Assembly (NCBI GenBank): GCA_023512255.1
Contig: JAILZY010000093.1
Span: forward strand, 1 to 12,806
Origin: a bacterium
Lineage (GTDB): Bacteria; SZUA-182; DTGQ01
Length of the DNA: 12,806 nucleotides
Direction: 5' to 3'
Shown here: one piece after another, positions 4,522-12,806 of the stretch
How the letters are laid out: each line of letters opens with the position of its first letter
Numbering within the stretch: position 1 is the stretch's first letter
Made by a program: the position numbers and the translations under genes
The notes under the pieces: model-generated
What the model saw: the letters and a program-made list of their open reading frames with translations, nothing else
Told to the model about the DNA's origin: nothing
Database searches by the model: none

Positions 4522-6288
4522 TCAGCTATTTTTTTTCACAATCCGAGGAGTGATAAAGATCAGCAACTCGTCATACTTTTCAACCGCACCCTGTGATCTG
4601 AAGAGCCACCCAAGGCCGGGAATATTGGCAAACCAGGGGACCTTCTGCTCATTCTGCTGTTGAGTGCGCTGATAAAGCCCCCCAATCACAGTCGTATCCC
4701 CATCCTTGACAATCAGCTTGGTAGTAGCCGTCCGAGTGGTAATTGCCGGAACGCCATTTACGGTCTGGGCCCAGTTAGGCTCGCTTTTGTCTGCCTCAAT
4801 CTCTAGGGTGATATAGTCATTCGGGGTAATGTGAGGAGTAACCCCCAGCCTGATAACAGCATCAACGAAGTTAGTGGATGGATTGCCCTCCTTGTCTACG
4901 GATGGGTAAGGGATCTGAGAGCCACTTTTGATTTCTGCCTTCTCATTATCCAGGGTGGCAATTCGGGGATTGGATATAATTCTCCCCTTGCCTTGAGACT
5001 CCATGGATTCAAGTTCGATATTGAGCTGAATGAGATTATTAATATGCCCAAGATTTAAGCCAACTCCCCCAAAAACATCCCCTTTGTTGGGGAGGTTGAC
5101 CGCGTAGGTGCCCCCGCGAATGCCGCTGATATCAATGGTTCGGGGAAAGCGGTAGTTGGTTTGTCTTCCATATCCTCCACCCCATCTGATACCAAGCTCT
5201 TTAAGATATGATTTATTGGTTTCCACGATCCTGGTTTCAATCATAACCTGAGGGGTCTCCCGGTCTAGCTTAGCCAAAACTTCCTTAATCTTAGCCAAAT
5301 TTTCCGGCAAATCCTTAATGATCAGCGAATTAGTTCGCTCATCGACGATAATGGATGAGGGCTCCTGCAATCCCTTCGGGTCAGTGAGCATTGGGCTGAT
5401 CTGCTCTTTGAGCTTGCTGGCCTGAGCATAATTGACCGAAATAATTTCCGTCTTCAGCGGGCGGCTGTTTTTCTGGGCCTGCTCAGCCATCTGCTTGGCC
5501 TGAATAGCCTTCACCGCCGCGTCTTCCTCCTGCTGAAAGGTCCTCTGGGTCTCTATCCGAATAATATTGCCCTCCATTCTCATGGCCAACTGGTTAGTTT
5601 TCAGGATGATATCCAAGGCCTGATCCCACGGGACAGGATTTTGGATAGTAACGGTAACTCTCCCCTTGACATCAGGATCAATAACCATATTATGATTGCT
5701 GACCTCACCGATGATCCGAAGCACAGACCTGATATCTGCATCCTGAAAGTCAAGTGAAATGGGCTTGCCGCGATAGACCTTTTCTGAAACAGGAGTATCT
5801 GAAACAAGAGTAGAGGATGAAGTTTTAGTCTGAATTTTGTCTAAATCTGAGCTAGCAGGGGCAAAAGCCTTGCTCATACGATTGGCCCCGACGGAGTCTG
5901 CCCTTGAAGGAGTCCGACTGCTGGCTGAGCGAACAATATCTCGCTCAAAAGTCGGCTCAGGCGGGATGTCCCGCTCCACGATCGGCTCCGGTGAAAGAAG
6001 TGGATTTGAGGAGACAGAAACAGCAGTTTTAGAGCTGCCGGCCCCCTCTGCCGCCGCCTGCTGCGTCGGCGGATCAGCCGCCGCGGCCCCAGACATTTTA
6101 GCCTGCCAAGGTGAGGTTGAGGTGTTTTTGCCCTTGCTGATCTCCCAATTGGAGGGTGATTTGAGAGCGGTTGAGTTGGCAGCCTTACGGTTACTTAAAC
6201 CGCAGGCGCTTGCTTGGCAGCACAAAAACAGGATCAGGATCGCTTTGACTTGGGTTTTCAGCCGATAAAAGCCCCTTCTGGAATACAT
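4522..6288 (-). CDS. pilQ: PilQ, type IV pilus secretin
   Basis: PilQ forms the outer-membrane ring through which the pilus passes. From the ATG at 6288 the protein has 588 residues. A basic N-terminus and hydrophobic signal end at Ala-Ser-Ala-Cys29, a plausible lipobox. A low-complexity Ser/Ala/Pro linker follows, with a local duplication (PEPIVERDI then PEPTFERDI). The N0/STN domain is at about 173-249, one N1 secretin domain at about 279-345, and the secretin core at about 347-586, with the typical VPWFANIPGLGWLF and final LLIFITPRIV motifs. No AMIN domains are visible, so it is shorter than many PilQ proteins. A GTG at 6327 would extend the frame, but the ATG follows a strong GGGGG ribosome-binding site and the extension would run through a perfect palindrome, so I prefer the ATG. 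Confidence 0.96.
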   Translation of the reverse strand: MYSRRGFYRLKTQVKAILILFLCCQASACGLSNRKAANSTALKSPSNWEISKGKNTSTSPWQAKMSGAAAADPPTQQAAAEGAGSSKTAVSVSSNPLLSPEPIVERDIPPEPTFERDIVRSASSRTPSRADSVGANRMSKAFAPASSDLDKIQTKTSSSTLVSDTPVSEKVYRGKPISLDFQDADIRSVLRIIGEVSNHNMVIDPDVKGRVTVTIQNPVPWDQALDIILKTNQLAMRMEGNIIRIETQRTFQQEEDAAVKAIQAKQMAEQAQKNSRPLKTEIISVNYAQASKLKEQISPMLTDPKGLQEPSSIIVDERTNSLIIKDLPENLAKIKEVLAKLDRETPQVMIETRIVETNKSYLKELGIRWGGGYGRQTNYRFPRTIDISGIRGGTYAVNLPNKGDVFGGVGLNLGHINNLIQLNIELESMESQGKGRIISNPRIATLDNEKAEIKSGSQIPYPSVDKEGNPSTNFVDAVIRLGVTPHITPNDYITLEIEADKSEPNWAQTVNGVPAITTRTATTKLIVKDGDTTVIGGLYQRTQQQNEQKVPWFANIPGLGWLFRSQGAVEKYDELLIFITPRIVKKNS

Positions 6289-6299
6289 TCTCTTCCCCC

Positions 6300-6329
6300 T
6301 TGTGGAACAAGAGGCCTCTTGTTCCACAA
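6300..6329. repeat. Perfect 30-bp palindrome between pilP and pilQ
   Basis: The half-site TTGTGGAACAAGAGG (6300-6314) is followed directly by its exact reverse complement (6315-6329). In the pil mRNA it would fold into a stem of about 13 bp with a four-base loop. Six bases separate it from the pilP stop codon. The ribosome-binding site of pilQ starts right after the stem. No T-run follows, so it is not a normal terminator. It may stabilise or process the mRNA, tune pilQ translation, or be a protein-binding site. Confidence 0.8.
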
Positions 6330-6335
6330 ACCTTA

Positions 6336-6782
6336 TTATCTGCTGACCACAGCAGATGGTGGAGCATCTTCTTTGTATAGCCTGACCGTAGTCTCTTCCG
6401 TCTTTTTCCTTCCCAAGTAGTCCGTAACTGTAGTTTGAATACTCAACCGATCATTTCCGATCTCGACCACTCTCCCCTTCAATTTGCCAATCTCTTCACC
6501 TTGTTTAACCAGGTAACATTTTCCATCAGGGGTCTCAATCACGGCTACCCTCCCTAACCCTCCCCAGACTATGCCGACAAGTTTCAACTCGGAAAGATCA
6601 TAGGTTAGCAGCGGCGATAAAGGTGGCTGGGCAGGCTGCATAAGCTCAACCGCCAAGGGTGATTTGAAGGGGTCTCGAATTTTTTCCGTCGATTTTATCT
6701 CCACCGCAGACATTCCGAACATCAGAGGGGAAAAAAGGACAAGAATCAATAATAATTTTCTAATCTTCCTGTTTCCCTGCAT
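6336..6782 (-). CDS. pilP: PilP, type IV pilus periplasmic connector
   Basis: PilP links the inner-membrane PilN/PilO pair to the N0 domain of the PilQ secretin. The 148-residue protein has a signal sequence (about residues 1-26) and the conserved RDPFKSPL segment (37-44). A small beta-domain follows, with the family pattern YDLSELKLVGIVW (61-73), a PDGK turn and VKQGEEIGKLKGRVVEI. Unlike Pseudomonas-type PilP, it has no lipoprotein cysteine after the signal and looks like a cleaved or anchored periplasmic protein. The start is well set: AAGGAG lies six bases before the ATG, inside the end of pilO, with which pilP overlaps by 23 bases. The gene is followed by the 30-bp palindrome and pilQ. 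Confidence 0.94.
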   Translation of the reverse strand: MQGNRKIRKLLLILVLFSPLMFGMSAVEIKSTEKIRDPFKSPLAVELMQPAQPPLSPLLTYDLSELKLVGIVWGGLGRVAVIETPDGKCYLVKQGEEIGKLKGRVVEIGNDRLSIQTTVTDYLGRKKTEETTVRLYKEDAPPSAVVSR

Positions 6783-7410
6783 TTTGTTCTCCTTGTCCCG
6801 AAAAGGCTGCTGGCTTTTGCTGGCCCTCCGGCAAATCGTTTGGCTGGAACCGATAGGTAGTAGCTACACAACTGGTTTCAAGAGTAACAAGATTACCCGT
6901 AATCTGGGGATTCCCCATACTAAAATCCTCAATATTGACGATCCGATCCAGGGCGCTAATCGATTGAAAGAAATGAGCTACATTGTGATAGGCTCCCCGC
7001 ACTTTAATATCGATCGGAAGCTGGTGGTAGAATTCTTTCTTAATCTCAGCCTGGGGCTTGAAGAGCTCAAATTCAAGCCCAGCGTTACTTCCAAGATCAG
7101 AAATTTTAGTCAAAAGAGCAGGGATTTCTTTTTCTGTGGGCAACTGAATCTGGGCTAGTAGAAATTCCTGCCGGACCTTTTCCATCTCCCGCTGAAGGGA
7201 AGTCATATCTTTACAAATCTTGCGAGTCTCCTCTAGGGTCCGATTGAGGCTAGCCAATTCTCCACTCATGCGGTCGATGGTATCCTGTTTGGGCTGGATG
7301 AGGGTAAAGTAGCACCCTGTGCCGACCATCATACCGACCAATAGCAGGAGCAAAATCTTTTGGACCCGAGGCAGGGAAGCCAACTTCTTGTTAAGTGCCT
7401 TCATGTTCAT
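6760..7410 (-). CDS. pilO: PilO, type IV pilus inner-membrane alignment protein
   Basis: PilO pairs with PilN in the inner membrane and periplasm and helps align the motor with the secretin. The 216-residue protein has a short basic cytoplasmic tail, one transmembrane helix (about residues 17-38), a coiled coil (about 45-90), and a ferredoxin-like domain (about 95-195) containing the typical IDIKVRGAYHNVAHFFQSIS segment. It starts two bases after the pilN stop, with a weak ribosome-binding site, so translation is probably coupled to pilN. Met3 is an equally possible start. Its 3' end overlaps pilP by 23 bases. Length and architecture match the family. Confidence 0.95.
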   Translation of the reverse strand: MNMKALNKKLASLPRVQKILLLLLVGMMVGTGCYFTLIQPKQDTIDRMSGELASLNRTLEETRKICKDMTSLQREMEKVRQEFLLAQIQLPTEKEIPALLTKISDLGSNAGLEFELFKPQAEIKKEFYHQLPIDIKVRGAYHNVAHFFQSISALDRIVNIEDFSMGNPQITGNLVTLETSCVATTYRFQPNDLPEGQQKPAAFSGQGEQNAGKQED

Positions 7411-7412
7411 GG

Positions 7413-8009
7413 CTATTTCTTCTCTTCTCTTGAGCCTTCTCCTGACAAGCTCATGTTCGCTTGAGAATTAGAATCGACTAGGTTGCAGATGATCTTAAAA
7501 TTTTGTACCTTTTTGTTATCAGCTATCGCTCGCTGCTCGGTTTTGTCCAGCTCTATTTGCCTCAACAATCCTGTATTTTCGAGGCTCTTCATGAAGTCAG
7601 CAACGTTATTGGCCGTAAGTGACATACCCTCCAGACTAAGTTGCGATCCCTTGCTTGATAGGGAAGAAAGCCATATTTCATCTGGAATGATCAGCGAAAG
7701 CTGATTAAGCAGCGGAGCAGGCCCCTTTTGCCTTGATTTCAACTCCTTGATGATATTAAGCTTTCGTTCCACTTCCTTTTTCTCTTCCTTGAGTTTTTTA
7801 ATCTTATCGATCTGTATATTCGAGGTCTCTATTTGCCGCTTAGTCTCGCTGATCTGTCTTTGAAGATTCTCAATCTTAAAATTCAATTGGTGATACCACA
7901 GAGCCACTGCTCCAAACAGCAGGAGCAGAAAAATGACCCCACTCGTCAATTCCTTGCCGATAGATAAACTCTTCTTTTTCCTTTTGGGAAGCAAGTTGAT
8001 CCTAATCAA
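7413..8009 (-). CDS. pilN: PilN, type IV pilus inner-membrane alignment protein
   Basis: PilN binds cytoplasmic PilM through its N-terminal tail and pairs with PilO in the periplasm. The protein has 198 residues and begins MIRINLLPKRKKK, the hallmark PilN motif that docks on PilM. One transmembrane helix (about 21-40), a long charged coiled coil (about 42-95) and a fimbrial-assembly domain (about 98-178) follow. A polar tail rich in Ser and Glu ends it. The start codon is TTG at 8009, overlapping the pilM stop by four bases (TTGA), with a GGTGGAT sequence about seven bases upstream. The conserved N-terminal motif confirms this start. Confidence 0.96.
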   Translation of the reverse strand: MIRINLLPKRKKKSLSIGKELTSGVIFLLLLFGAVALWYHQLNFKIENLQRQISETKRQIETSNIQIDKIKKLKEEKKEVERKLNIIKELKSRQKGPAPLLNQLSLIIPDEIWLSSLSSKGSQLSLEGMSLTANNVADFMKSLENTGLLRQIELDKTEQRAIADNKKVQNFKIICNLVDSNSQANMSLSGEGSREEKK

Positions 8010-9070
8010 CGGTCATCCACCCTTCTTAAGGCTAATCCCATGACCACAGCCATCATTGGGGCCACAGAAGTTAGCCATCCGGTATCAAATTGGTTTGGAT
8101 TGATTTGAATCTTCTGAAAAGGGTTAGCTTTTTCCACCTCAAGTTCAAAGCGATGGGCCAAAGCCGCATCTATCCCCTCAACTTTGGATGTGCCTCCACT
8201 GAGCAAAATCTTGCCGATGGGAGCATTGTCCGACGTAGCCCGAAAATAATCAAAAGAGCGCTGGATTTCCGAAAAAATTTCCTCATAAAAATTCTCCCGC
8301 AATGGAACCACTTGATCTGCCGATACTCCCTCAACATACTCTCCCTGCTTCAGCCTCTCAGCCTGATCAGCAGAAAGCCCCAAGCTGGTTTGCAAAATCT
8401 TCGAATAGTCATTCCCGCCCAGCGAAGCATCACGGGTAAAGACCGTCTCCTTCTCCCATAAAATATTCATGTTCATGGTATCCGCGCCAATATCAAGCAA
8501 AACCACATAATTGCCTGCCTCTTGGTGAGTATGATTTATTTCATATTGATTTTCCAGGGCAAAGACATCAATATCAATAACCGCCGGATTAAGACCGGCT
8601 TTGGTAACCACTGATACCAAATCCTGGATACGCTCTTTCTTGACCGCTACCAGGAGAACATCCATATCTCCTTCATCCTTTTTAGGGGGATTATGCATGA
8701 TCTGAAAATCTAAACTGACGTCATTGATATCAAAAGGGATATACTGCTCTGCCTCAAAGCGAATGGATTCCTCTAGCTCATCTTCACTCATAGCTGGCAG
8801 CTTGATTCTCTTAATGATTACCGACCGGCCAGACACTGAGGTAGCCACATCCTTGGTGGTAACCTTTTGCTCCTGAAATAATTGCTTGATAGTCTCAATG
8901 ACTATCTGCTTGTCAAGAATTTCATCTTCAGAGATGACCCCCTGAGGCAGGGGTTTTAAGGCCGCCTTGACTAGCTCATACCCCTTAGCGGTCTTCTTCA
9001 ACTGGGCCAGCTTAAGGGAACTTGTGCCAATATCCAGCCCGATTAATTCTTTTTTACTGAAAAGTCCCAT
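8006..9070 (-). CDS. pilM: PilM, actin-like cytoplasmic ATP-binding protein
   Basis: PilM is the cytoplasmic ring component of the type IV pilus alignment complex; it binds ATP and the N-terminal tail of PilN. The 354-residue protein shows the actin/FtsA-fold motifs. The first phosphate loop is IGLDIGTSSLKL (about residues 10-21). The second is LLDIGADTMNMNIL (about 190-205). The nucleotide-binding ILLSGGTSKVEGI segment lies near 287-299. Length is typical. The ATG at 9070 has GAGGAAG about nine bases upstream. It is the first gene of the pil operon, about 165 bases downstream of a near-consensus promoter at 9242-9270. Confidence 0.96.
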   Translation of the reverse strand: MGLFSKKELIGLDIGTSSLKLAQLKKTAKGYELVKAALKPLPQGVISEDEILDKQIVIETIKQLFQEQKVTTKDVATSVSGRSVIIKRIKLPAMSEDELEESIRFEAEQYIPFDINDVSLDFQIMHNPPKKDEGDMDVLLVAVKKERIQDLVSVVTKAGLNPAVIDIDVFALENQYEINHTHQEAGNYVVLLDIGADTMNMNILWEKETVFTRDASLGGNDYSKILQTSLGLSADQAERLKQGEYVEGVSADQVVPLRENFYEEIFSEIQRSFDYFRATSDNAPIGKILLSGGTSKVEGIDAALAHRFELEVEKANPFQKIQINPNQFDTGWLTSVAPMMAVVMGLALRRVDDR

Positions 9071-9580: not shown

Positions 9581-9675
9581 TCAGCGGATCAGGTGCCAAT
9601 TGCGGACCGTTTTGAATAATCCGCCATAGGGTGAGATCTCTATCCCGCCGTATCGCTTATGGACACAAAAAAAAA
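9581..9675 (-). other. Out-of-frame C-terminus of the binding protein, with a T9 run
   Basis: The binding-protein gene meets nine consecutive T (9675-9667 on the minus strand), then reads Leu-Cys-Pro and stops at 9657. With eight T, the frame continues for 28 more residues ending at a TGA at 9581-9583. These include KRYGGIEISPYGGLF and RNWHLIR, the kind of C-terminal ending family 5 binding proteins normally have. The gene is therefore frameshifted at the homopolymer. It could be a sequencing error, slippage-based phase variation or a real mutation. The full protein would have about 524 residues. Confidence 0.85.
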
Positions 9676-11156
9676 TACTCCCGCCAAAAAAGAAAGATAC
9701 CTGCAGGATCATGGTGCATCTCCTCCTGATAATCTCGGTAGATGATTTTCCTCTTTTCCTGACTCAAAGCCCGTCTACCTTGATCGAGCAATTGGTCAAT
9801 CCGGGGATTTCGGTAAGAGAAGATGTTAAGCCCGCCCTCTATCTGTGAAGAGTGCCAAAACTGGTAATTCTTATCTGGATCACTGCTAGCCAGGAGGTAT
9901 AAAAAGGCAGCATCAAATTTCCTGGGAATAAGGTAATCCCGATCAAGTATAGAAATAGGGGCCTTCTTTATGTTGACTACGATCCCGAGGCTCGACAACT
10001 GCTCGACAATCATGAGTGAGGCCAGATCAAGCTCATCGTGCCCCTCAGGCAGGCAAAGCTGAAATTCGAACCGCTGACCGTTTCTATCCAGCACATGATC
10101 ACCATCGGTATCTTGCCATCCTGCCTCCCTTAATAATTCCATCGCCTTGATGGGATCATAAGGGAAGGGGCAAACATTGGGATCATAGGCCCAGGAGTAG
10201 GGAAATACGGTCCCCGAGGCAACCATCCCCCTCCCCTTCAATACCCGCGTTATAATGCTTTCCTTGTCTATAGCATAATTCAGAGCCTGCCGAACCCTCC
10301 TGTCTTGAAAAAGCGGTTTGGCCAGATTAAAACCGATGAGATAATAAAAATCTCTCAACGAGGAGTATATTCTGAAAGAGGGAATCTTTTTGATAATCCT
10401 ATATGATTCGGCATTGAAAAATTCAAAGGCATCGATCTCTCCCCTCATCAGATGCGCCCAAACCAGTCGCTGATTGTCGAATATTCTGACTATGAGCCGA
10501 TCAAGATATGGCCTTCCCAGAAAATAGTCTTGATTTGCCTCAAACTCGATTCTGTCTGAAGCCCGGGCCAATAGGCGAAAGGGGCCGGTGCCCACCGGCT
10601 GATAATTGAATGAGGCGCTGCGTATATCCCTGCCCTGAAGAATATGTCTGGGCACAATCGGCACAGCCAGGGCGTAGATAAAAGAAGATGACGGCTTGTC
10701 CAGGAAAATGCTGATCGTGTAAGGATCTTCAATCTCTATCTTGGCGATCTTTTCGGAAATAGGTGGATATGCCTTAGCCGTGCCTTTGGACAAAAGATCC
10801 AGGGTAAAGGCTACGTCATCAGCAGTAAATGGATGGCCATCATGAAACCTTACTCCCCTTCTGAGATGAAAAGTCCACTTTCGGCCTCCCTCGCCCACCT
10901 TCCAGGAGGAGGCCAGATGGGGCAGGGCATTTCCTCCTTCTCCTATCTTGATCAGACCATCAAAGATAACCCTAGTCAGCAAAGCTGAGGTACCGCTTAG
11001 CTCTGTCAGGGGATTTAAGGTATTATACTTGCCACTACAGCCAAGAGTAAGTGTGCCTCCGAATGATTTGGCCGGAAGATCATTTTTCCTACCGCATGAG
11101 GCCTGGCCCACAAAAAGGAAGAGAAGCGACAAGGCGATGAGTTTTTTGGTCTGCAT
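9657..11156 (-). CDS. Family 5 extracytoplasmic solute-binding lipoprotein, frameshifted
   Basis: This is the substrate-binding component type used by peptide, oligopeptide and nickel ABC importers (DppA/OppA family, SBP_bac_5). The 499 residues in this frame start with a signal ending at Ala-Ser-Cys21, so it should be a lipoprotein. The fold markers are in order: GGTLTLGC near 34, IFDGLIKI (about 69-76), and WTFHLRRGVRFHDGHPFTADDV (about 93-114), the family signature. The segment DRRVRQALNYAIDKESI follows near 285-301. The C-terminus is cut short by a frameshift at a T9 run; removing one T gives about 524 residues, the usual family length. No permease or ATPase genes are in the window. It follows the 24-codon peptide gene and a terminator, and its ribosome-binding site is weak, so expression may depend on read-through. 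Its ligand cannot be read from the sequence; the modified peptide upstream is an attractive guess. Confidence 0.93.
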   Translation of the reverse strand: MQTKKLIALSLLFLFVGQASCGRKNDLPAKSFGGTLTLGCSGKYNTLNPLTELSGTSALLTRVIFDGLIKIGEGGNALPHLASSWKVGEGGRKWTFHLRRGVRFHDGHPFTADDVAFTLDLLSKGTAKAYPPISEKIAKIEIEDPYTISIFLDKPSSSFIYALAVPIVPRHILQGRDIRSASFNYQPVGTGPFRLLARASDRIEFEANQDYFLGRPYLDRLIVRIFDNQRLVWAHLMRGEIDAFEFFNAESYRIIKKIPSFRIYSSLRDFYYLIGFNLAKPLFQDRRVRQALNYAIDKESIITRVLKGRGMVASGTVFPYSWAYDPNVCPFPYDPIKAMELLREAGWQDTDGDHVLDRNGQRFEFQLCLPEGHDELDLASLMIVEQLSSLGIVVNIKKAPISILDRDYLIPRKFDAAFLYLLASSDPDKNYQFWHSSQIEGGLNIFSYRNPRIDQLLDQGRRALSQEKRKIIYRDYQEEMHHDPAGIFLFWREYFFLCP

Positions 11157-11178
11157 AAAGAGATTCTCATGAAAAATC

Positions 11179-11205
11179 GGGCTGGACCTTTTCCCAGTCC
11201 AGCCC
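11179..11205 (-). terminator. Intrinsic terminator between the peptide gene and the binding protein
   Basis: On the minus strand GGGCTGGAC pairs perfectly with GTCCAGCCC (nine pairs, nine-base loop), followed by GATTTTTC. It lies 27 bases after the stop of the 24-codon gene and 22 bases before the binding-protein start. It should end most transcripts after the peptide gene, giving much more peptide mRNA than binding-protein mRNA, or it may be a regulated attenuator. Confidence 0.8.
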
Positions 11206-11232
11206 TAAAAACATGTCTTTCTTAATATTCAA

Positions 11233-11307
11233 TTAACGATGATCAAGAACCCACTGACAATCAGGTCTTGGGACGATAATTTTACTGCCTTTCTTGATAA
11301 TCTTCAT
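11233..11307 (-). CDS. 24-residue candidate RiPP precursor peptide
   Basis: This gene is too short for ordinary gene calling, but its start signals are excellent: AGGAGG lies eight bases before the ATG, and the radical SAM gene's stop codon overlaps this site, 14 bases from the start. The N-terminal part is MKIIKKGSKIIVPRP, basic and leader-like. The C-terminal part is DCQWVLDHR, with single Cys17 and Trp19 plus Asp16, Asp22, His23 and Arg24. Radical SAM/SPASM enzymes commonly modify such short peptides encoded beside them; PqqA is about this size. Likely modification sites are Cys17 (thioether) or Trp19 (carbon crosslink), but this is inference. I do not recognise the peptide family. The alternative is a regulatory leader peptide, since a terminator and then the binding-protein gene follow. 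Confidence 0.7.
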   Translation of the reverse strand: MKIIKKGSKIIVPRPDCQWVLDHR

Positions 11308-11321
11308 ACTTTTTCACCTCC

Positions 11322-12668
11322 TTAGCCAAAACTCCTAACATATTCCTCTCTGATCAAAGGGATAGCCACCTGCTCAAAGTACCTTCGCTCGCACGCCGGT
11401 TTAAGAAAATCACCTCCTTTCAGGAAGGCACTGTATCGGCACCCCCCACCACAGAGGGGAATGTAGGCACAGCCGCGGCATTGCTTCCAGATGTCCGCGG
11501 TCATAAACTCGGTCATTCGGTAATTGAAAGTCTCGGTTCGAATATCACCGACGGCAAACTCTTCTATCCCGGCAAAACCGCCGCACTTGTAAATCCTGCC
11601 ACCCGGGTCAATTGTATAGGAGTGCTCCCTGAAAACCGAGCACGGCCCTAAGGCTATCCCTTGGTTAGGTTTAAATCCCCGAATCTCGATTTCCTTTCTG
11701 AGCCAAAGAATATCCTTGGGGCTCACCTCGGAGAAGGTACAAATCTGACAGAGGCCACCGGCTAAATTCTTTTTCCGGCGGGCCAGACTGGTGAAGATCG
11801 GCTTGAAATGAACCTGCTCGATCTTATCTTGAAGCCCTGCCCTGAGAAGGCGGTCAAGAAGAGCGGGGATGGAGGTTTTATTCTCTTCATCAAAGTTTCC
11901 TCCTATACGAACAGGTACCCGGCCCGAAATCCTGATCAGGTTGTTTAAAATCTGCGTAAAGCTTCCCCCTCCTCCCTTGAAGGGACGTTTGCGGTTATGA
12001 GCCTCTTCATCACCATCCAAAGTTATCTTTATGCCGCTAAGACCCAAGGGCAAGAGAGAATCTACCAGCTCTTCGGTCAGAAGAACTCCGTTAGTTACAA
12101 TCTGAATTTCCAGGGTGATCCCCTTGGCTAAAGCCGCCTCATGGAGTGTGCGGCTAAGATTATAGATGGTGGGTAGCCTAAGGAGAGGCTCCCCGCCATA
12201 GTATACGATGTTCAGGATGCGGGGGCGAATCTCTTCCATCTTTTTTTGAACCCAGGCAGCTACCAGAAGACAGGTTTCCTGATCCATAGAGAGGTCAGTG
12301 GCCTTGAGGTCATCTTGAAGACAGTAGCTACATCGCAAATTGCAGGCCAATGTGGGCAGGATAGTAACCGCTAAGATCGAGGTATCAAATTTGATCCTCT
12401 GAAACCAATACTCAAGCTCCCGCTCTTCATCAACATACTCATCAACGATAATGCCAAGTTCCCGAAGCTGCTCTAGGTTAGAGCGATCAGAAGGAGACAA
12501 GCTCTGAGAGGACGGCCCTTTGCTTGATCGGCCTCGCTCAATCAGAGCTGCCAGATGTTTATCAACCACTACTTCCGAGCCAAGGAGGGTATTAAAGATG
12601 AGATATTCTTCTTCAGAGTCATCGACTGGAATAAATAGATTAAATTGTGACCCTTTATAGCTGTCCAT
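11322..12668 (-). CDS. Radical SAM/SPASM peptide-maturase-type enzyme
   Basis: This enzyme should cleave S-adenosylmethionine with a [4Fe-4S] cluster to start radical chemistry, most likely on the small peptide encoded right after it. Numbering here is from the upstream TTG (450 residues). The N-terminal 95 residues (YLIFNTLLGSEVVVDKHL...LRELGIIVDE) resemble the leader-binding or cap region of peptide maturases. The radical SAM motif is Cys111, Cys115 and Cys118 (CNLRCSYC), with the GGEP motif at 160-163 and TNG at 194-196. The C-terminal SPASM region has Cys345, Cys364 (GRIYKC), Cys399, Cys402, Cys408, Cys412 and Cys428, enough for two auxiliary clusters. Cys309 and Cys312 are additional. 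I chose the ATG at 12668 (AAGGA about 11 bases upstream); TTG at 12674 or 12671 are alternatives. The substrate cannot be proved from the sequence. Confidence 0.95.
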   Translation of the reverse strand: MDSYKGSQFNLFIPVDDSEEEYLIFNTLLGSEVVVDKHLAALIERGRSSKGPSSQSLSPSDRSNLEQLRELGIIVDEYVDEERELEYWFQRIKFDTSILAVTILPTLACNLRCSYCLQDDLKATDLSMDQETCLLVAAWVQKKMEEIRPRILNIVYYGGEPLLRLPTIYNLSRTLHEAALAKGITLEIQIVTNGVLLTEELVDSLLPLGLSGIKITLDGDEEAHNRKRPFKGGGGSFTQILNNLIRISGRVPVRIGGNFDEENKTSIPALLDRLLRAGLQDKIEQVHFKPIFTSLARRKKNLAGGLCQICTFSEVSPKDILWLRKEIEIRGFKPNQGIALGPCSVFREHSYTIDPGGRIYKCGGFAGIEEFAVGDIRTETFNYRMTEFMTADIWKQCRGCAYIPLCGGGCRYSAFLKGGDFLKPACERRYFEQVAIPLIREEYVRSFG

Positions 12669-12732: not shown

Positions 12733-12749
12733 CAGATGTTCCCCATGTT
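12733..12749 (+). repeat. 17-bp motif, right copy
   Basis: CAGATGTTCCCCATGTT is identical to 79-95 read on the minus strand. Both copies point out of the window and follow an AT-rich -10-like sequence (ATA, then one base, then the motif). This copy overlaps the predicted transcription start. A strong AGGAGGAGGAG purine run follows at 12757-12767. Confidence 0.5.
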
Positions 12750-12806
12750 TAAATTAGGAGGAGGAGATAAGCCGCAGGGGAAGGGTATTGAGGTAAAAGA
12801 TAATAG
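12736..12806 (+). CDS. Possible start of a plus-strand gene, cut by the window edge
   Basis: An open frame from ATG at 12736 (or ATG at 12745) runs to the end of the window and reads MFPMFKLGGGDKPQGKGIEV and onward. No ribosome-binding site precedes either ATG, although an extended -10 promoter would place the transcript start at the first ATG, allowing leaderless translation. The purine run AGGAGGAGGAG and a later GAGGT could instead be ribosome-binding sites for a start beyond the window. I do not recognise the sequence. It is divergent from the radical SAM gene. Confidence 0.25.
   Translation, partial: MFPMFKLGGGDKPQGKGIEVKDN

Follow-up and report, generated by a model that had tools for sequence, protein, structure and literature searches.

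A tiny single-cysteine peptide conserved beside a radical SAM/SPASM enzyme, and its possible part in peptide production and perception

Signalling by ribosomal peptides is best known in Gram-positive bacteria, and ribosomal peptides modified by radical SAM/SPASM enzymes are a known kind. Among the enzymes of this kind, CteB is a thioether maturase whose RRE binds the leader as a strand (PMC8326336), and a quorum-sensing role has been reported for SCIFF-derived ranthipeptides, in work cited in PMC8102284. The gating of a sensor kinase by a binding protein also has a precedent, in the control of ChiS by CBP (PMC7564644). In the open-licence papers that we searched, we found no description of a single-Cys precursor family or of a cassette joining a SBP_bac_5 (SBP5) binding protein to a kinase and an NtrC-type regulator, and likewise none of geopeptides. 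Here we analysed a bacterial contig of 12,806 nucleotides (JAILZY010000093.1, assembly GCA_023512255.1; hereafter the window), in which a 24-codon gene follows a radical SAM/SPASM gene (Table 1).

The encoded peptide, MKIIKKGSKIIVPRPDCQWVLDHR, has a basic N-terminal half, a single Cys (Cys17) and an Asp at Cys+5 (Asp22), and its frame starts 14 nt past the end of the enzyme gene. The original prediction had placed an AGGAGG ribosome-binding site across the maturase stop codon, and this is what the sequence contains; AAGGAGGTGAAA at this site is retained in the sole same-genus genome available for comparison (G001), where a similar hairpin also stands in the same place after the peptide gene (z -3.3). 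No exporter or leader protease was identified adjoining the peptide gene. A divergent open frame that starts MFKLGGGDKPQGKGIEVKDN (12745-12806, forward strand) is cut by, or ends at, the contig end.

Table 1. Positions in the window of the features discussed, with the evidence for each.
Feature	Positions	Strand	Evidence
SBP_bac_5 (OppA/AppA-like) peptide-binding lipoprotein	9657..11156	-	Pfam PF00496, 260 bits, above gathering score
Hairpin and T-rich stretch (GATTTTT), intrinsic terminator/attenuator between peptide and SBP genes	11179..11205	-	-23.7 kcal/mol, z -4.0
24-codon precursor-peptide gene (then stop)	11233..11307	-	Sequence; same-genus homologue; dN/dS
AAGGAGG ribosome-binding site of peptide gene	11317..11323	-	Overlaps maturase TAA 11322-11324; 9 nt before ATG
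Radical SAM/SPASM peptide maturase, 448 aa: RRE-like winged-helix N-terminus (predicted), radical SAM core, complete SPASM	11322..12668	-	Profiles, residues, AlphaFold model

Gene order is the same in G001, which encodes a peptide homologue, MKIIKKGSKIVVPRPDCQVVIDWR, that is 83% identical to that of the window, beside an enzyme that is 73% identical. The two peptide genes differ at 17 nucleotides while retaining 20 of 24 residues, an outcome reached in 0 of 20,000 trials of random placement of 17 changes, and seven or eight of the 12 differing codons are synonymous (those for I, K, V, P, R, V and D, and also R24). With dN/dS values of 0.09 (peptide) and 0.13 (enzyme), the peptide is under purifying selection, and the 24-residue frame is almost certainly a real, conserved gene. 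Random substitutions or stops in close relatives, named beforehand as signs against the prediction, were not seen: the frame in G001 is intact and its changes are mostly synonymous. The prediction had also named conservation of a DCQW...DHR segment as support; the segment as a whole was not kept, since G001 reads DCQVVIDWR. We rejected this strict motif, of which the nearest relative keeps the Cys and the acidic residue five positions on alone. Outside G001 the peptide gave weak matches (E 0.06-1), which we discarded because none shared a contig with an enzyme match.

For the enzyme, we chose ATG 12668 as the start instead of a TTG further upstream: in the homologue from G001 the corresponding Met is closely preceded by a stop and, between the two, a codon that cannot serve as a start. 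The protein carries the predicted CxxxCxxC motif (C109-x3-C113-x2-C116; CNLRCSYC) and the full set of seven SPASM cysteines (C343-x13-G-x4-C362 ... C397-x2-C400-x5-C406-x3-C410-x15-C426), and both sets were invariant in 22 homologues. Its AlphaFold model (pLDDT 85.9) comprises an N-terminal b-b-b-a-a arrangement (residues 10-70), a radical SAM barrel and a SPASM domain, and matched over its whole length the structures of CteB (5WHY/5WGG, Z 27; residues 7-444 aligned) and TigE (8VPO, Z 25; residues 1-447), the latter of which we take to belong to TIGR04463. The N-terminus is predicted from the model to be an RRE-like winged helix. The best NCBIfam profile was that of the geopeptide maturase, TIGR04280, membership of which was rejected as the score (292.6 bits) fell under the curated cut-off of 400; the four other related enzymes checked were also below it, and a true geopeptide enzyme scored 641. 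In a tree of 81 enzymes, those with single-Cys peptides (hereafter the clade, scoring 230-295 bits on TIGR04280) and the true geopeptide enzymes formed sister groups (SH-aLRT 92 and 83; a quick search with moderate support). The window enzyme falls in the clade and so is sister to the geopeptide maturases, though under their profile cut-off. In two genomes from the taxonomic family of the window, true geopeptide enzymes are present instead.

Homologues in genome contigs were found by an alignment-based scan, a single-protein scan of the same contigs having found nothing, and a plasmid search returned no close relatives. The only PADLOC matches were weak ones to viperin, in the radical SAM core. 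Another genome contains a further, separate candidate RiPP locus, where two Cys-rich small frames with ribosome-binding sites lie just before tandem radical SAM/SPASM genes (L019 1042-1164 and 1190-1363; G058:C49).

Beside clade enzymes we collected 42 single-Cys peptides of 20-33 residues, with the Cys at residue 16-21, from Acidobacteriota, Omnitrophota, Myxococcota and unnamed lineages (an acidobacterial example is MKITVIKKAATTRKPQNFCPWIQEDAPQK). The N-terminal part is basic in 41 of the 42, and positions relative to the Cys are commonly occupied by Pro at +1 (n = 31), Trp or Phe at +2 (n = 34) and Asp or Glu at +5 (n = 33), giving C-P-[WF]-h-h-[DE] as the usual motif of the wider family. 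Most lie downstream of the enzyme gene, with two upstream (G023, G171). The original prediction would have been weakened by enzyme homologues lacking a small frame; one was present at 27 of 28 acidobacterial loci, the 28th being cut by a contig end, as well as in Omnitrophota, Myxococcota and others. No precursor was found with confidence in G187, and none in L048 or in L060, which is cut by a contig end. Across 193 genomes of one acidobacterial class, the enzyme was detected in 62, the peptide in 56 and both in 54, so that the peptide was present in 54 of 62 genomes with the enzyme against 2 of 131 without it (Fisher p = 1.5e-36, a value that overstates independence because the genomes are related). 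In at least one of the genomes with a peptide but no enzyme (G561), the peptide gene is less than 1 kb from the start of its contig, so that an adjoining enzyme gene would be truncated.

A profile HMM of the wider family, built without the window and G001 sequences, scored the window peptide at chance level (E 4.9), and its link to the family therefore rests on enzyme phylogeny, position and a shared anatomy of length, basic N-terminal half, single Cys and acidic residue at +5. No precursor tested matched an NCBIfam model. The 24-mer belongs to an uncatalogued family of tiny one-Cys peptides spanning several phyla, and is very probably the substrate of the neighbouring enzyme; the first proposal of a candidate RiPP beside its maturase is supported by the conserved adjacent frame in homologous loci and by selection. 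The contrary view, that the small frame is a non-coding coincidence or a leader for translational coupling rather than a substrate, could appeal to a length of merely 24 codons, but it is hardly credible in the face of the dN/dS of 0.09, the conserved Cys, the co-occurrence with the enzyme and the recurrence across the family; selection and co-occurrence led us to reject a chance non-coding frame.

Several acidobacterial loci also encode, adjoining the Cys peptides, Cys-less peptides preceded by Shine-Dalgarno sequences and having a [RHTS]-PWLVD core. Ten examples were identified, downstream of the enzyme (L049, L138, L140, L141, L142, L144, L147, L151, L154 and L161), and one pair gave a dN/dS of 0.07. 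Since PW-h-h-D is common to both types and the Cys is not, either Trp or Asp carries the modification or the Cys-less type does something else; the Cys may therefore not be the modified residue. A fixed Cys-Asp/Glu thioether is not claimed, as 9 of the 42 peptides have no Asp or Glu at +5 and the Cys-less paralogues exist.

The gene following the peptide in the window encodes an SBP5 protein whose best solved relative is AppA (1XOC) and whose solved relatives include nickel- and metallophore-binding proteins and a chitin oligosaccharide-binding protein. An SBP5 gene adjoins the enzyme in 21 of 21 uncut clade loci versus 2 of 68 other radical SAM loci (p 3e-17, with an SBP5 HMM built from some of the counted loci), and the two exceptions, L061 and L064, are both CC-type relatives. 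Pfam independently confirmed SBP_bac_5 in the window, L050, L051, L031 and L186 (the second copy in G001), and the candidate SBP5 protein of L058 had no Pfam match at 1e-4. No ABC permease or ATPase was recognised in the window or among the listed clade-locus neighbours, and a simple ABC ATPase motif scan of the clade loci was also empty. Among clade loci whose downstream flank reaches 2.5 kb or more, all but those of the window and G001 encode a histidine kinase near the enzyme; its architecture is dCache-HAMP-HATPase, with dCache and HAMP present in most kinases scanned, and an NtrC-type sigma-54 regulator (RR-sigma54-HTH_8) is usual. The sequences show that the set of peptide, enzyme and SBP5 recurs across distant phyla, where a dCache-HAMP kinase and an NtrC-type sigma-54 regulator accompany it.

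These partners are inferred to point to recapture and sensing of the product. A redox or enzyme cofactor in the manner of PQQ or mycofactocin, for which the peptide would be trimmed to a small molecule serving an oxidoreductase and SBP5 would recycle fragments, would suit precursors of 20-33 residues whose C-terminal half has a single strongly conserved set of residues; however, no dehydrogenase or PqqB/C/F-like processing gene was seen to recur next to the enzyme, whose constant companions are instead SBP5, kinase and regulator, and we consider this the less probable of two improbable accounts. The other, only slightly more probable, is a secreted antimicrobial RiPP with SBP5, kinase and regulator as a self-sensing or immunity switch. 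Such a product would fit the near-identical Cys peptides that some genomes encode in tandem (four of them in L142), yet no immunity gene or dedicated exporter was identified, and the spread of the enzyme through a class (62 of 193 genomes) with a conserved peptide alongside would be atypical of a bacteriocin.

In the window's own genus, the kinase and regulator are absent beside the enzyme (within 138 nt on the upstream side in the window, and 7 kb on each side in G001). Each genome of the genus nevertheless encodes one full-length homologue of the cassette kinase elsewhere (38-40%, E < 1e-115), other kinases matching in the catalytic part only or far more weakly; in the window's genome (G000) this homologue is 38% identical (E 1.5e-116), and the next kinase (6e-34) matches by its catalytic part alone. 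The unlinked module of G000 (L185:5448-9309; G000:C62) combines a TonB receptor and the dCache kinase with an M28 peptidase, while that of G001 (L186:3774-9479; G001:C55) combines them with a second SBP5, 61-62% identical to the window's SBP5 (63% for the positional counterpart in G001). Through this module, the type of SBP5 found in the window is linked with a TonB receptor and a dCache kinase. A second precursor was sought beside the unlinked kinases of G000 and G001 and was not found. Elsewhere in the window, a reverse-strand type IV pilus operon (4522-9070; PilM, probable PilN, PilO, PilP and secretin) is followed by a gene for a 700-residue protein with an invasin-type Ig-like domain (PF09134; 2389-4491, reverse strand); in G001, PilM and the following genes also come after the SBP gene.

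TonB receptors bear on the closest rival, a methanobactin-like metallophore, in which the modified peptide would bind metal outside the cell and re-enter through a TonB receptor and SBP5, with the kinase reporting metal status or metallophore uptake. They occur in the G022 and L058 loci and in the unlinked modules of G000 and G001, and a TonB-dependent receptor gene adjoins nearly all true geopeptide maturases (G002, G317, L062, L063, L066-L074, L077, L078, L080, L082-L086 and others), which suggests recapture across the outer membrane for geopeptides as well. Methanobactin is taken up by the TonB-dependent MbnT and the OppA-like MbnE (PMC7558416), making the metallophore a serious rival, and the nickel- and metallophore-binding relatives of SBP5 and a peptide core with a Cys plus acidic or His residues add to its case. 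Against it stand a short core that has a single Cys and lacks a conserved second soft ligand (His23 in the window peptide is replaced by Trp in G001 and is not conserved elsewhere), the lack of any TonB receptor found within acidobacterial loci, and, as the constant partner, a sensor kinase that an NtrC-type regulator usually accompanies. We judge the metallophore unlikely, though a good deal less so than the cofactor or the antimicrobial.

Our best reading, which we hold with evenly divided confidence, is that SBP5 captures a radical SAM-modified one-Cys peptide, which a two-component system then senses. The basic N-terminal half would be a leader bound by the RRE of the enzyme, which would modify, by radical chemistry, the C-terminal stretch that surrounds the single Cys (C-x-[WF]-h-h-[DE]); a thioether from the Cys to a downstream residue would be the most plausible modification. 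The trimmed product would then exit the cell and be recaptured via the TonB receptor, in members having one, and the SBP5 lipoprotein, and the loaded SBP5 would activate the dCache sensor kinase and a sigma-54 regulon, with the kinase module sitting elsewhere in the genome in the window's genus. The peptide could serve as a cell-to-cell or self-sensing signal, and for a signalling role as such the balance is about level. The chances are likewise roughly even that window positions 9657-12668 encode part of a system for small-peptide production and perception. More tentatively, and at somewhat below even chances, the loci may represent a widespread class of micro-peptide pheromones in largely uncultured Gram-negative phyla, defined by a single-Cys precursor of 20-33 residues, an RRE-rSAM-SPASM maturase, SBP5, a dCache kinase and an NtrC/sigma-54 regulator (with a TonB receptor in some), possibly with Cys and Cys-less PWLVD types acting together and with modification at C-P-W-h-h-[DE].

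If this is true, largely uncultured Gram-negative phyla, including Acidobacteriota, Omnitrophota and the small phylum of the window, would gain a peptide signal with a single compact gene set for its production, modification and perception. The analysis adds a precursor family for which no NCBIfam model was found. Co-occurrence and selection link this family to its enzyme, and a binding protein, a kinase and a regulator are named as candidates for testing. The set of one-Cys and Cys-less substrates offers a route to the function of this branch of RRE-SPASM enzymes.

Among described systems, the ranthipeptide maturases, including SCIFF/CteB and PapB, share the RRE-rSAM-SPASM architecture, with CteB as the best solved match, and the clade's Cys with a downstream Asp or Glu recalls the Cys-Asp links of freyrasin (PMC8326336); the clade peptides differ in their one Cys, C-x4-[DE] spacing and other neighbouring genes. 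The assertion that the locus is neither SCIFF nor PqqA-like holds, as SCIFF (TIGR03974) has six Cys in about 45 residues where this peptide has one, the enzyme scores 82 bits against 425 on the SCIFF maturase profile, and the precursor Glu-Tyr pair of the PQQ system is absent from a peptide with no Glu or Tyr. The PapB maturase (NF047865) was similarly rejected (119.9 bits; cut-off 340). TigE/TIGR04463 (rSAM_vs_C_rich) provides the third-best profile and, in 8VPO, a full-length structural match, but the window enzyme scores 185 bits against a cut-off of 525 and the precursor is of another type. Two further systems are analogies rather than cases of membership. Methanobactin uptake (MbnA, MbnT, MbnE) likewise joins a small ribosomal peptide, a TonB receptor and an OppA-like SBP (PMC7558416), but the cassette described here matures its peptide with a radical SAM protein instead of MbnBC and has a two-component system attached. 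In CBP-ChiS chitin sensing of Vibrio, a binding protein gates a kinase (PMC7564644), and the window SBP counts a chitin oligosaccharide-binding protein among its relatives of known structure, but the ligand is a sugar and not a self-made modified peptide. The geopeptide system (TIGR04229/TIGR04280) is the nearest by enzyme profile and tree, and shares a short precursor beside the enzyme with a TonB receptor and often a kinase near. The window peptide and seven single-Cys relatives did not match TIGR04229, whereas a CC peptide did; geopeptide precursors carry a CC pair, while those of the clade have one Cys and lie mostly downstream of the enzyme, and SBP5 belongs to the clade cassette.
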